Virus record (IMG/VR): IMGVR_UViG_3300046714_000157 | Span: 1 to 44,218 of that record | DNA length: 44,218 nt | Source: a virus | Reading direction: 5' to 3' (one strand) | Part shown: positions 13,806-17,931 of the stretch, piece after piece | How positions within the stretch are numbered: position 1 is the stretch's first letter | How the letters are laid out: each line of letters starts with the position of its first letter | The notes under the pieces: generated by a model | Seen by the model: the letters and a program-made list of their open reading frames with translations, nothing else | What the model was told of the DNA's origin: nothing | Database searches by the model: none | Program-made: the position numbers and the translations under genes

Positions 13806-14537
13806 ATGCGGACCATTCTGAGTTATTCCGGCGGACGCGATTCGGGGGCGATGGTGTTGGCGATGTTGGCGGGCGAGCATCCGACGATCAAGGTGATCGA
13901 CGAAATCATTTTTTCTGATACGGGCTCGGAGGCGGATGAGACGTATGCCTACCTCCCCTATTTCCAAGCGATCGTGCGCGAGCGGTTCGGGCGGGAAATC
14001 ACGGTGTTGTCGTGGCGGACGAATCCGGAGACGCGCTATCAGACGTTGTTTGACTATTGTCAGGAGACGGGCCACGAACGGATTCCCTCGCGGATTATGA
14101 AATGGTGCACGGACAAGACGAAGATCGTCCCGATCACGCGGTACGTCAAGGCGACCTATCCAGGGGAGGCGATTCAAATGTGCATCGGGTTTCGCGGCGA
14201 CGAAGCGCACCGCGTGAAGGGCGGGCGGAATCAGATGAAGGGTTTTGTGAATGCGTTCCCGTTGGGGGCGATGGGGATTACGACGCGGGAAGACGTGTAC
14301 GCGGTCTTCGATCGAATGGGCGTCAAGCGCGCGCCGCATTCGGCGTGTTGGTTCTGTCCGATGCGCAATATTGACTGGTTTCGGGATCATATGGCGGTGG
14401 ATCTGCCGGAGCGGTTCGAGGCGTTGATTCAGTTAGAGACGACGATCAATGAGCGGCGGGCGGCGGAAGGCAAGTCGCAGTTTACGTTGAAGCACAAACC
14501 GTTGGCGACATGGCGAGCGGTGGCGGTCAATTCATAA
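13806..14537 (+). CDS. PAPS-reductase-like PP-loop enzyme
   Basis: A protein of 243 residues of the adenine nucleotide alpha hydrolase superfamily. The PP-loop is S8-G-G-R-D-S13; Arg replaces the usual Lys. Further marks are IIFSDTGSEADETYAYLP (substrate-side loop), MKWCTDKTKIVPI (the WC..K pattern of PAPS-reductase-like proteins) and C181-W-F-C184 near the end, a likely metal or Fe-S ligand pair. Relatives act on sulfate assimilation, DNA phosphorothioation (DndC) or tRNA thiolation; phage members are of unsettled function. Here it sits in the early region, with no other sulfur gene in view. Confidence 0.8.
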   Translation: MRTILSYSGGRDSGAMVLAMLAGEHPTIKVIDEIIFSDTGSEADETYAYLPYFQAIVRERFGREITVLSWRTNPETRYQTLFDYCQETGHERIPSRIMKWCTDKTKIVPITRYVKATYPGEAIQMCIGFRGDEAHRVKGGRNQMKGFVNAFPLGAMGITTREDVYAVFDRMGVKRAPHSACWFCPMRNIDWFRDHMAVDLPERFEALIQLETTINERRAAEGKSQFTLKHKPLATWRAVAVNS

Positions 14538-14570: not shown

Positions 14571-16067
14571 ATGGACCACTTAACCCAATTTCAGAAGGGG
14601 CGGAGCGTCGGGGTGCCGATCATGGGGATCGAGACGCCGGATCAAGAGGCGACGATTCGGGTGTTGGCGGCGACGGGGAAGAATGGGAAGGCGGCGATGA
14701 TCGGATGGGATATCGTCCGAGGGTTCACGGCGATGAATGAAGCGGGCGCGGCGGTGTTGGCGAAGATCGCGAGCGATCCGACGGAGTTGAAGGGACGGAC
14801 GGTCAACGTCGTCGAGGCGTTGGATTTGGCGGTGGGGTTTCCGGACGATGCGATTGTGTTCGCGCGGAATATCCACCGCGTCATTGACGAGGCGGGCGTG
14901 TCGCAGGCGATCGCGAATCTGCGAGACGGGAATAAGGCGAAGGGGCGGACGTTGGTGTTACTCGCCCCGTTTCTCCGGTTGCCGGTCGAGTTGGAGCGCG
15001 ATGTCATTGTGCTGGAGGAGCCGTTGCCGAGCGATCAGGAGTTGGGGGCGATCGTCAAGGGGGTCTATGAAGACGCGGGGATGAGTGCGCCGACGGAGGG
15101 GCATTTGGACCATCTGATATCGGCGTCGAGGGGGTTGGCGGCGTTTCAGTCGGAGCAGGCGGCGGCGATGGCGTTGACGAAGGCGGGCGTCGATCGGGTG
15201 GAGTTGTGGGAACGGAAGCGGAAGATGATCGAATTGACGCCGGGTCTGTCCGTCGTGCGGGGATCGGCGACGTTCGCGGAGATCGGCGGGATCGAGAACG
15301 TCAAGGCGTTCGGGGCGTCGATCTTCAAAGGTCAAGCGCGTCCGTCGTGCGTCGTGTTCCTCGACGAGATCGAGAAGGCGTTGGGCGGCGCGACGGGGGA
15401 GGTGGGGGATTCGTCGGGCGTGGCGCAGGACGCGTTAGGGGTGTTGCTCAAGGCAATGGAAGATAACGCGTGGACGGGGCAGATCGCGGTCGGCCCGCCA
15501 GGGTGTGCAAAAAGTATGTTCGCGCAGGCGTTGGGGGCGACACATGACGTGCCGACGATCGCGTTGGATTTGGGGGCGGCGAAGGGATCGCTGGTTGGGC
15601 AGTCGGAGGCGCGGGTTCGGGGGATCGTGCGGGTGTTGAAGGCGGTGGCGGGATCGGGCGCGTATTGGGTGGCGACGTGTAATCGGTTGGAGACGTTGCC
15701 GCCGGAATTGCGGCGGCGGTTCCGGTTCGGGTTGTGGTATTTCGATCTGCCGGACGCGGTGGAGCGCGCGGCGATTTGGACGTTACAGATGAAGCGGTAT
15801 CAGGTCCGCGCGGATCAGGCGCGGGAGATGCCGGACGATGCAGAATGGACGGGGGCGGATATCCGGAACTGCTGCGAGATCGCGTGGCGGTTGAATGCGT
15901 CGTTGGTCGCGGCGGCGCAGTTTATCACCCCGGTGGCGAAGTCGAATCCGGAGGCGATCAAAAAGCTGCGGGATACGGCGCACGCGCGGTTTCTGTCGGC
16001 GAGTTATGCGGGGACGTTCGATCGGGAGCGGAAGGTGGAGACGAAGGGACGGAAGATCAGCATCTAA
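14571..16067 (+). CDS. Ycf46-like AAA+ ATPase with rearranged Walker motifs
   Basis: A protein of 498 residues. Residues about 1-235 read like the N-terminal domain of Ycf46-type ATPases (VRGFTAMN, then LLAPFLRLPVELERDVIVLEEPLPSDQEL), followed by the domain entry FAEIGGIENVK (to about 245). The AAA+ core has its parts in unusual order. Walker B (V261-V-F-L-D-E-I-E-K269) and the helix with GDSSGVAQDALGVLLKAMED come first, then Walker A (G308-P-P-G-C-A-K-S315), LDLGAAKGSLVGQSEARVR, sensor 1 (VATCN371) and LPPELRRRFRFG. In standard AAA+ proteins Walker A precedes Walker B. The P-loop also has Ala313 where Gly is usual. Likely an ATP-driven remodelling enzyme working with the next two gene products. 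Confidence 0.85.
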   Translation: MDHLTQFQKGRSVGVPIMGIETPDQEATIRVLAATGKNGKAAMIGWDIVRGFTAMNEAGAAVLAKIASDPTELKGRTVNVVEALDLAVGFPDDAIVFARNIHRVIDEAGVSQAIANLRDGNKAKGRTLVLLAPFLRLPVELERDVIVLEEPLPSDQELGAIVKGVYEDAGMSAPTEGHLDHLISASRGLAAFQSEQAAAMALTKAGVDRVELWERKRKMIELTPGLSVVRGSATFAEIGGIENVKAFGASIFKGQARPSCVVFLDEIEKALGGATGEVGDSSGVAQDALGVLLKAMEDNAWTGQIAVGPPGCAKSMFAQALGATHDVPTIALDLGAAKGSLVGQSEARVRGIVRVLKAVAGSGAYWVATCNRLETLPPELRRRFRFGLWYFDLPDAVERAAIWTLQMKRYQVRADQAREMPDDAEWTGADIRNCCEIAWRLNASLVAAAQFITPVAKSNPEAIKKLRDTAHARFLSASYAGTFDRERKVETKGRKISI

Positions 16068-16125: not shown

Positions 16126-16566
16126 ATGAGTCATGTGGCGAAGATCGAGATCGAGATCAAGGACCTGGCAGCGTTGAAGGCGGCGGCGGAGAAGTTGGGG
16201 ATGGAGTTCATGGAGGGGCAGAAAACGTACAAGTGGTATGGACGGAGCGTCGGGGATACGCAGCTCCCGGCGGGGTTTTCGAAGTACGAATTGGGGACGT
16301 GCGCGCACGCGTTGCGGATCGCGGGGAATAAGACGGCGTATGAAATCGGGGTCTGCGCGCGGAAGGATGGCGGCGCGGGGTTTCTGTTGTTGTGGGATTC
16401 ATGGAATGGCGGCTATGGATTGACGGAGAAGGTGGGGGCGAAGGCGGAGAAGTTGAAACAAGGCTATGCGGTCGAGGTGGCGACGCGGGCGGCGCGGCGT
16501 CAAGGGTTCCGCGTGACGACGACGACGAGACAGGACGGCAAAGTTGAACTCCGGTTGCAGCGATAA
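16126..16566 (+). CDS. DUF1257 / Ycf35-like protein
   Basis: A protein of 146 residues. I placed the start at ATG 16126 after AAGGGAGACGGG; the frame is open further upstream but only inside the AAA+ gene. The opening MSHVAKIEIEIKDLAALKAAAEKLGMEF is the hallmark of DUF1257 (Ycf35), whose members usually begin MSH followed by a strand and IKDLEALK. A Gly/Tyr-rich middle (YEIGVCARKDGGAGFLLLWD) and a basic C-terminus follow. DUF1257 genes in plastids and bacteria are linked to Ycf46-like ATPases; the biochemical role is not established. Here it follows the ATPase and precedes the DUF2997-like gene. Confidence 0.8.
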   Translation: MSHVAKIEIEIKDLAALKAAAEKLGMEFMEGQKTYKWYGRSVGDTQLPAGFSKYELGTCAHALRIAGNKTAYEIGVCARKDGGAGFLLLWDSWNGGYGLTEKVGAKAEKLKQGYAVEVATRAARRQGFRVTTTTRQDGKVELRLQR

Positions 16567-16581
16567 GGGGAGGGAACGGAA

Positions 16582-16761
16582 ATGCAAACAGTGACCATTG
16601 TGATCGATCAAGAGGGTGGGGCGTCGGTGGGCGTCGGGTGCGTGAAGGGGAAGACGTGCAAGGCGGTGACGGCGGAGATCGAGAAGGCGTTGGGGAAGAC
16701 GGTCGGCGATCAACTGACGGCGGAATACCATGAGGTGGAAAATGCAAAAGCTCGTCATTGA
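16582..16761 (+). CDS. DUF2997-like small protein
   Basis: A protein of 59 residues. It starts at ATG 16582 after GGGGAGGGAACGG and ends at TGA 16759-16761, overlapping the next gene. The pattern matches DUF2997: a short strand (QTVTIVIDQEGG), a V-K-G-K-T-C segment, then TAEIEKALGKTVGDQLTAEYHE, where DUF2997 proteins have an LE..LG...E.T.EYY end. With the ATPase and the DUF1257 protein it completes the three-gene association seen in cyanobacteria and other bacteria. Confidence 0.75.
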   Translation: MQTVTIVIDQEGGASVGVGCVKGKTCKAVTAEIEKALGKTVGDQLTAEYHEVENAKARH

Positions 16762-16993
16762 TAACGCGGGGACGATCACGTTGATCTATGCGGATGATCT
16801 CAGCGCGATCATGGGCGAAGGGAAGGTGACGATCACGCGGGCGAGTCATGTCGAGCCGGTCGATGAATTCGATTGCTTCAAGGGATGGGCGGCGGATCTC
16901 TCACCCGTCGGCGGTCCGGTGTTGGGACCGTTCAAGAGTCGGGCAGAGGCGTTGGCGGCGGAAGTCGAATACTTGGAAAGGGAGGTGCTGTGA
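16742..16993 (+). CDS. Conserved phage protein (RASHVEP / GGPVLGPF family)
   Basis: A protein of 83 residues from ATG 16742 (GAGGTGG lies just before; ATG 16730 is an alternative). It carries ITRASHVEP, then GWAADLSPVGGPVLGPFKSRAEALAAEVEYLE, a pattern I know from many phage and bacterial small proteins of unknown function. The first half is a beta hairpin (LVIDNAGTITLIYADDLS). The gene overlaps its upstream neighbour by 20 bases and the downstream one by a single base (TGATG). Confidence 0.65.
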   Translation: MQKLVIDNAGTITLIYADDLSAIMGEGKVTITRASHVEPVDEFDCFKGWAADLSPVGGPVLGPFKSRAEALAAEVEYLEREVL

Positions 16994-17931
16994 TGAAGCG
17001 GACGGCAAGCGCGGTGATCGCGGAAGAGGCGACGAACGGGACGGACGTGATCAGGGATCTCCAGCGGGAGGCGATTCTGTTCTCGCTGAAGATCGGGCAA
17101 TGGAGAATCCGGAAGACGGCGGAGACGGCGAAGGTGGAGACGACGGCGCATAAAAATCTGATCCATGTTCGGAAGCGGATTCTTGACTCGGATGAATATC
17201 GGGCGATCGCGAAAGCGGACACGGAGGCGCGGGAATTCGTGTTGCGGCAGTGCGTGCCGTCTCCGTTGGGGCGGGGCGTGTATCTGTTGCCGATCGAGTT
17301 GGTACGCGGGACGATGGAATGGTTGAAGGATTATCAGGAGACGCGGGACGAATTGATTGCCGCGTTCCTGAAGGTATACCCGGCGCAGCGGGAGGAAATG
17401 CGCCGGACGTTGGGGGATCTGTACGATGAAGCGGATTATCCGGTGGCGCGCGAGATCCGTGATCGGTTCTGGGTTTCGACGATGATGATGGAATTGAACG
17501 CGCCGGAATCGCTGAAGGGGATCAGCGGCGTCATGTATCAGGAGGAGGTGGCGCGGATTCGGAACGTGTGGGAGGAGACGAAAGGGACGATCACGGCGGC
17601 GTTGTATCAGGAGATGGCGGAGTTGGTGAACGGGTTGGTGGAGCGGTTGACGGTGCGGGAGGGGGAGAAGGCGCAGGCGTTGCGACCGGGCGCGGTGGCG
17701 AAGTTTCAGGAATGGTTGGATCTGTTCGGCGCGCGGAATTTGACGCGGGATCAGGATTTGGAGGTGATCGTGGAGCGGGCGCGCGCGGTGGTCAGCGGCG
17801 TCGATGTCGAGACGATTCGCGAATCTAAAGGGTTGCGGCAGGAACTGGCGGCGACGTTCGCGGATCTCAAGAAAGAGTTGACGGCGGCGATCGGCGCGCG
17901 TCCGTCGCGAAAGATTCGGTTGGAGGAGTAA
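16993..17931 (+). CDS. DUF3150-like phage protein
   Basis: A protein of 312 residues starting at ATG 16993, which shares its A with the upstream TGA. It is almost wholly helical. The order KVETTAHKNLIHVRKRILDS, then CVPSPLGRGVYLLPIELV, then LGDLYDEADYPVAREIRDRFWVS, then LFGARNLTRDQDLEVIVERAR and VSGVDVETIRES follows what I recall of DUF3150-like proteins, which often accompany MoxR/CobS-type ATPases in phages and plasmids. Here it directly follows the Ycf46-like trio, so it may be a fourth partner. The family call is from memory. Confidence 0.55.
   Translation: MKRTASAVIAEEATNGTDVIRDLQREAILFSLKIGQWRIRKTAETAKVETTAHKNLIHVRKRILDSDEYRAIAKADTEAREFVLRQCVPSPLGRGVYLLPIELVRGTMEWLKDYQETRDELIAAFLKVYPAQREEMRRTLGDLYDEADYPVAREIRDRFWVSTMMMELNAPESLKGISGVMYQEEVARIRNVWEETKGTITAALYQEMAELVNGLVERLTVREGEKAQALRPGAVAKFQEWLDLFGARNLTRDQDLEVIVERARAVVSGVDVETIRESKGLRQELAATFADLKKELTAAIGARPSRKIRLEE

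Follow-up and report, generated by a model that had tools for sequence, protein, structure and literature searches.

The window, the whole stretch of DNA that was analysed, is 44,218 bases long, comes from a virus record and represents a fragment of a tailed phage, with genes for a terminase, a portal, a head protein, a RecE-like exonuclease and ParB. Positions 14571..16067 of its plus strand encode P0001, a permuted Ycf46-like AAA+ ATPase of 498 amino acids. All 77 scanned members of its family match the AAA domain (Pfam: PF00004). On P0001 itself this domain (1.2e-13) is matched only piecewise, and the phmmer alignment of P0001 to solved structures is likewise split into separate pieces.

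The N-terminal region of P0001 (residues 1-221, plus strand 14571..15233) has no Walker A motif and is collinear with positions 12-239 of a hidden Markov model (HMM) of canonical-order relatives. Based on this collinearity and on the alignment of the full-length model to the two-ring proteins Rix7 and p97, it is likely to be a degenerate, AAA-like domain of the kind found in Ycf46. The following motifs all lie on the plus strand, and the residues called invariant are so in 77 diverse members of the family with a mean column identity of 39%. A block of residues 258-300 (15342..15470), corresponding to HMM positions 318-357, contains beta3 (260-264), Walker B and alpha3 (284-298), as assigned by DSSP on the predicted model. 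Its Walker B motif VVFLDEIEK (261-269, 15351..15377), with F263 and D265-K269 invariant, precedes the Walker A motif GPPGCAKS (308-315, 15492..15515), in which G308, G311 and K314 are invariant. After Walker A come SLVGQSEAR (340-348), VATCN (367-371) and LPPELRRRF (376-384). The first of these includes L-V-G (341-343, 15591..15599; G343 invariant), which is pore-loop-1-like by analogy with classical AAA proteins, the second the sensor 1 motif ATCN (368-371, 15672..15683; N371 invariant) and the third the arginine-finger region RRR (381-383, 15711..15719; R383 invariant). The lid motif TGAD (427-430, 15849..15860; G428 invariant) reads TGAE in most relatives. One permuted relative (L081:5001-6908, IMGVR_UViG_3300031772_000003) carries an intein, CLTGDTL...VVHN, directly before the Cys-Asn of the sensor 1 ATCN.

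Walker A, Walker B, sensor 1, arginine finger and lid of the AAA+ proteins are thus all found, and the order along the chain is Walker B, Walker A, VGQSEAR, sensor 1 (ATCN) and RRRF. The classical AAA order of Walker A, Walker B and sensor 1, on strands beta1-beta2-beta3-beta4-beta5, is broken in 100 loci by a Walker B that lies before Walker A. P0001 has a single P-loop; the motif scan of the family gave one match per protein and no second P-loop upstream of residue 261. No hhhhDE segment was found between alpha2 and the sensor-1 strand of P0001 or elsewhere after Walker A.

Downstream on the same strand lies a DUF1257 (Ycf35-like) protein of 146 amino acids (16126..16566; Pfam: PF06868, E=1.3e-4, above the gathering score), followed by a DUF2997 protein of 59 amino acids (16582..16761; Pfam: PF11211, E=6.4e-10). 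Between the latter and a DUF3150-like gene (16993..17931, 312 amino acids) there is a small conserved module protein, 'fam108' (16742..16993), which has homologues in 36 of the 100 permuted loci; the scanned relative of this protein had no Pfam match. The sister-locus homologues of the DUF3150-like protein belong to Pfam PF11348, the window copy itself being below Pfam detection, and we found nothing relevant on DUF3150 in open-access papers. Neighbouring homologues of DUF1257, DUF2997 and DUF3150-like proteins are present in 93, 92 and 93 of the 100 permuted loci, respectively, mostly in the same gene order. The order AAA-DUF1257-DUF2997-DUF3150 also occurs in 19 of the 25 nearest canonical loci. 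Two plasmids of Ca. Manganitrophus (L117 and L118) carry a canonical sister ATPase in this module, with the DUF1257 and DUF3150 genes apparently split in L118.

Directly upstream of the ATPase, at 13806-14537, the window encodes a PAPS-reductase/SspD/DndC-like ATP-pyrophosphatase, a homologue of which is near only two of the 100 permuted loci. Ten permuted loci have a radical-SAM-like 4Fe-4S protein nearby, and in Synechocystis duf2997-ycf35 is grouped with a ferredoxin gene (PMC4284462). Together these two observations hint weakly at a possible Fe-S or redox link of the module.

De-permutation of the motor domain

The canonical HMM was built from 93 canonical-order Ycf46-like relatives. Native P0001 matches it in four pieces, which follow each other along the chain as HMM positions 12-239, 318-357, 260-317 and 360-498. 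The block at residues 259-299 corresponds to HMM 318-357, while the later residues 303-360 correspond to HMM 260-317. For the de-permutation, residues 258-300 were excised and reinserted ahead of the sensor-1 strand. The de-permuted P0001 gave a single match over HMM 12-498 with 316.7 bits, compared to 110.6 bits for the best native piece, and restoring the block raised the score in all 99 permuted-family sequences tested. As a control, the block was reinserted 45 residues too late, which did not rescue the full-length match. Since the moved block itself is recognised by the canonical HMM and the restored order scores higher, the order with Walker B first is not due to chance.

The moved unit is one strand-helix of 43 residues (beta3-alpha3), displaced from between alpha2 and beta4 to a position before beta1. 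The alpha0-beta1 linker (HMM 240-259) is mostly missing from permuted proteins. The rearrangement amounts to a circular permutation of only the first three beta-alpha units of the core, not of the whole domain. These results bear out the preliminary description of the gene, made from the sequence, which had placed the three motifs VVFLDEIEK, GPPGCAKS and VATCN at the residues and in the order given above and had proposed that the strand 3 block with Walker B moved ahead of strand 1 in a protein resembling the Ycf46 group.

Catalytic residues and predicted fold

As the catalytic residues are invariant, we infer from the sequences that P0001 is catalytically active, as a Ycf46-like AAA+ remodeller whose core was permuted once. 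The protein would assemble as a hexamer, in which K314 and S315 would bind ATP and hydrolysis would proceed via D265/E266 and N371 together with the R383 finger of the neighbouring subunit. P0001 would then be a classical-AAA remodelling motor, most likely hexameric, whose first ring is degenerate. The R-x-x-R finger loop of canonical proteins is rearranged, and given this rearrangement trans-activation may differ from the canonical one. The least certain step is protein remodelling together with the DUF1257, DUF2997 and DUF3150 partners, for which we see the chances as roughly even.

Alternatively, the protein could be permuted but non-catalytic, a scaffold or ATP-binding subunit that tolerated the permutation because hydrolysis was already dispensable. 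Such a subunit would fit with the shortened arginine-finger loop, the degenerate N-terminal domain and the frequent replacement of the Gly before the P-loop Lys, where the 77 relatives have Gly in 37, Ala in 31, Ser in 7 and Cys in 2 cases. The Ala of P0001, which had been noted as a second alteration besides the motif order, is real but, given this variation, no second anomaly. Against a loss of activity stands the invariance of the Walker A Lys, the Walker B Asp-Glu, the sensor-1 Asn and one Arg at the mean column identity of 39% in the 77 members, as well as the intein beside the sensor-1 Asn in L081, as inteins favour working active sites. In addition, MCM and RavA proteins are functional with Ala before the P-loop Lys. 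We regard a non-catalytic protein as unlikely.

AlphaFold2, run with 77 family sequences, predicted the full-length P0001 with a pLDDT of 92.6 and a pTM of 0.84, and the isolated C-terminal domain with a pLDDT of 90.7 and a pTM of 0.87. The motor-domain strands in the model are 260-264 (beta3), 302-307 (beta1), 329-332 (beta2), 364-370 (beta4) and 388-390 (beta5), giving the chain order beta3-alpha3-beta1-alpha1-beta2-alpha2-beta4-alpha4-beta5-lid instead of the usual beta1-beta2-beta3-beta4-beta5. The rewired links are short, with 6 residues for alpha0-beta3 and 3 residues each for alpha3-beta1 and alpha2-beta4. Using Foldseek, the top matches of the whole P0001 among solved structures were Rix7 and p97, and the best matches in a viral model library were phage models named 'ycf46'. 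The C-terminal domain matched proteasomal ATPase, p97 and FtsH domains, with a TM of 0.3-0.6 and an rmsd of 7-14 Å in the sequential alignment. Low TM values are expected when a sequential aligner is used on a permuted chain; the permutation predicts them and they are no proof of it. The structure prediction and fold comparison suggested in the preliminary description thus yielded a confident five-stranded model with AAA folds as top matches, but only these modest sequential superpositions.

By analogy with the known AAA+ topology, the folded sheet would retain the strand order 5-1-4-3-2, with the Walker B (DEIEK) strand next to the P-loop strand. All three rewired links would sit on the edge of the sheet opposite the nucleotide site. 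The steps from beta2 to beta3 and from beta3 to beta4 (-1 each) would become steps from beta2 to beta4 and from beta3 to beta1 (-2 each), and since the step direction across the sheet would be kept, the crossovers can remain right-handed, and alpha2 and alpha3 would share one face of the sheet. The moved beta3-alpha3 could also pack in trans and complete the sheet of the neighbouring subunit, giving a domain-swapped ring, as hexameric AAA rings juxtapose subunits and the new links are short. However, the monomer predictions fold the block within its own chain, with high confidence and all five strands assigned, and a swap seems very improbable. We found no support for a reading in which the upstream DEIEK block belongs to some unrelated acidic helix or inserted segment, in a protein of canonical topology with its true Walker B elsewhere. 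This reading can practically be dismissed, because the block matches the canonical beta3-alpha3 of the HMM including alpha3, no other hhhhDE follows Walker A and the alpha2-beta4 link, the usual site of the canonical block, has three residues.

Distribution and origin of the permuted family

The order with Walker B first recurs in 100 loci, which come from IMG/VR phages, the isolate phage Tunturi_3 and bacterial genomes including the complete genome of Nitrospira moscoviensis. These 100 loci, with the isolate phage and the complete bacterial genome among them, rule out an assembly artefact or a one-off. The expectation of a recurrent, phage-borne family was therefore right as to recurrence and phages, but the family is not restricted to phages. 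Out of 193 classified full-length proteins, 100 are permuted, 93 are canonical and none is of a mixed form. Canonical proteins have the order Walker A, VG.SE, Walker B and sensor 1, in nearly all of them with Walker B 56 amino acids past Walker A, whereas in the permuted family Walker B lies 41-52 amino acids ahead of it. Canonical order is found in remoter Ycf46-like proteins of Mycobacterium, Rhizobium, Aeromonas, Rhodobacter and Streptococcus satellite phages, and in those of plasmids and further viral contigs.

In bacterial genomes the permuted ATPase apparently sits on integrated elements. The gene is sporadic, being present in one of 118 genomes of a phylum sample. The complete N. moscoviensis chromosome has two permuted copies (L096 and L097), and metal-resistance-like, ribonucleotide-reductase-like and helicase genes around the first suggest an integrated mobile element. 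Canonical Ycf46-like relatives are widely distributed among plasmids, with about 1,500 records, including conjugative ones of the IncA/C type. One example is the IncA plasmid pRA1 (L123), and a DUF2997 gene lies nearby on IncA/C-type plasmids. A Ca. Manganitrophus plasmid gene that was considered as permuted (one-piece tblastn coverage) is actually canonical and a useful sister.

The phylogeny was built on the N-terminal domain alone, a region untouched by the rearrangement. The permuted proteins form one clade, with an SH-aLRT of 100 in the tree of 108 rows and a bootstrap/SH-aLRT of 100/100 in a tree of 59 rows with a mixture model. This clade groups with the canonical proteins L117 (from a Ca. 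Manganitrophus plasmid), L131, L136, L137, L152 and L159 with a support of 95/97. With the root assumed among the other canonical proteins, the permuted family would descend from within the canonical Ycf46-like family. Multiple origins of the permutation were rejected, as the tree requires just one change. The nearest canonical group already has a shortened alpha0-beta1 linker, with 26-34 amino acids between the GG motif and the P-loop compared to 36 or more elsewhere. Several of its members also share the sensor 1 sequence ATCN with the permuted clade.

The most economical origin would be a tandem duplication of the stretch from beta1 to alpha3, after which the first copy would have lost beta1-alpha2 and the second beta3-alpha3. 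An intermediate with two Walker B blocks was not present among the 193 classified proteins. Overall, the best explanation, which we consider very likely, is a single-origin Ycf46-like AAA+ subfamily in which the beta3-alpha3 unit of the motor domain, with Walker B, was relocated before beta1.

Relation to known systems and significance

Canonical Ycf46-like ATPases such as Dylan gp95, Rhizobium L338C gp050, Geminocystis pGM3709_04 and those of the IncA plasmid pRA1 and the Ca. Manganitrophus plasmids share with the window family the degenerate N-terminal domain, the motor motifs, the lid and a similar length, and their loci often have the same DUF1257/DUF2997(/DUF3150) neighbours. P0001 has the Ycf46-like layout of a degenerate N-terminal domain and one C-terminal motor domain (HMM 12-498 once de-permuted), next to the genomic partners Ycf35 (DUF1257) and DUF2997. 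Its descent and partners place it among the Ycf46-like AAA ATPases, as a member that departs from the AAA+ motif order. Rix7/NVL, p97/Cdc48, FtsH and proteasomal ATPases, the top matches among solved structures, have the classical AAA motor signature in common with P0001 but differ in that their AAA domains are of canonical order and have no Ycf35-type partners.

Natural reordering of conserved motifs with the nucleotide- or cofactor-binding alpha/beta fold kept is established for the circularly permuted GTPases YjeQ/RsgA and YlqF/RbgA and for motif-permuted DNA amino-methyltransferases. These belong to other superfamilies and are whole-domain circular permutations, whereas in P0001 one internal beta-alpha unit moved. 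In the open-access literature we found no account of an AAA+ core permuted in nature, and nothing relevant on permuted P-loop proteins. The SpoVK/Ycf46/Vps4 group includes AAA proteins of the IetA/SgiA type, which are ATPases of anti-phage or toxin-antitoxin systems (PMC10954446). Their similarity to the P0001 motor is weak, at the domain level and far below family cut-offs, and no subtilisin-like IetS protease partner was found among the recurrent neighbours of the permuted loci or the scanned window genes. Membership of P0001 in the anti-phage IetA proteins was rejected, the domain match being only weak.

The motif order of AAA+ proteins is usually taken as fixed, and annotation labels genes of this kind merely 'AAA'. 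Here, a large AAA+ family of phages and mobile elements has its ATP-hydrolysis strand at a place in the chain where no close relative has it. The rearrangement apparently happened a single time and was retained, and would mean that one of the most conserved motor folds in biology was rewired naturally. We lean towards regarding it as the first recognised natural permutation of the AAA+ core, an active motor whose beta3-alpha3 was displaced a single time, through a local duplication followed by loss, within a module of mobile elements. If true, Walker B and alpha3 are uncoupled from sensor 1 in the chain, and the path of inter-subunit signalling is rewired with them. The matched canonical sisters in the same module make the cost of the broken alpha3-beta4 link in inter-subunit signalling directly measurable, and many sequences are available for testing a change of fold topology with function kept. 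A family that is stable, diversified and of single origin and has one beta-alpha unit transposed would mean that the motor core tolerates natural rewiring.
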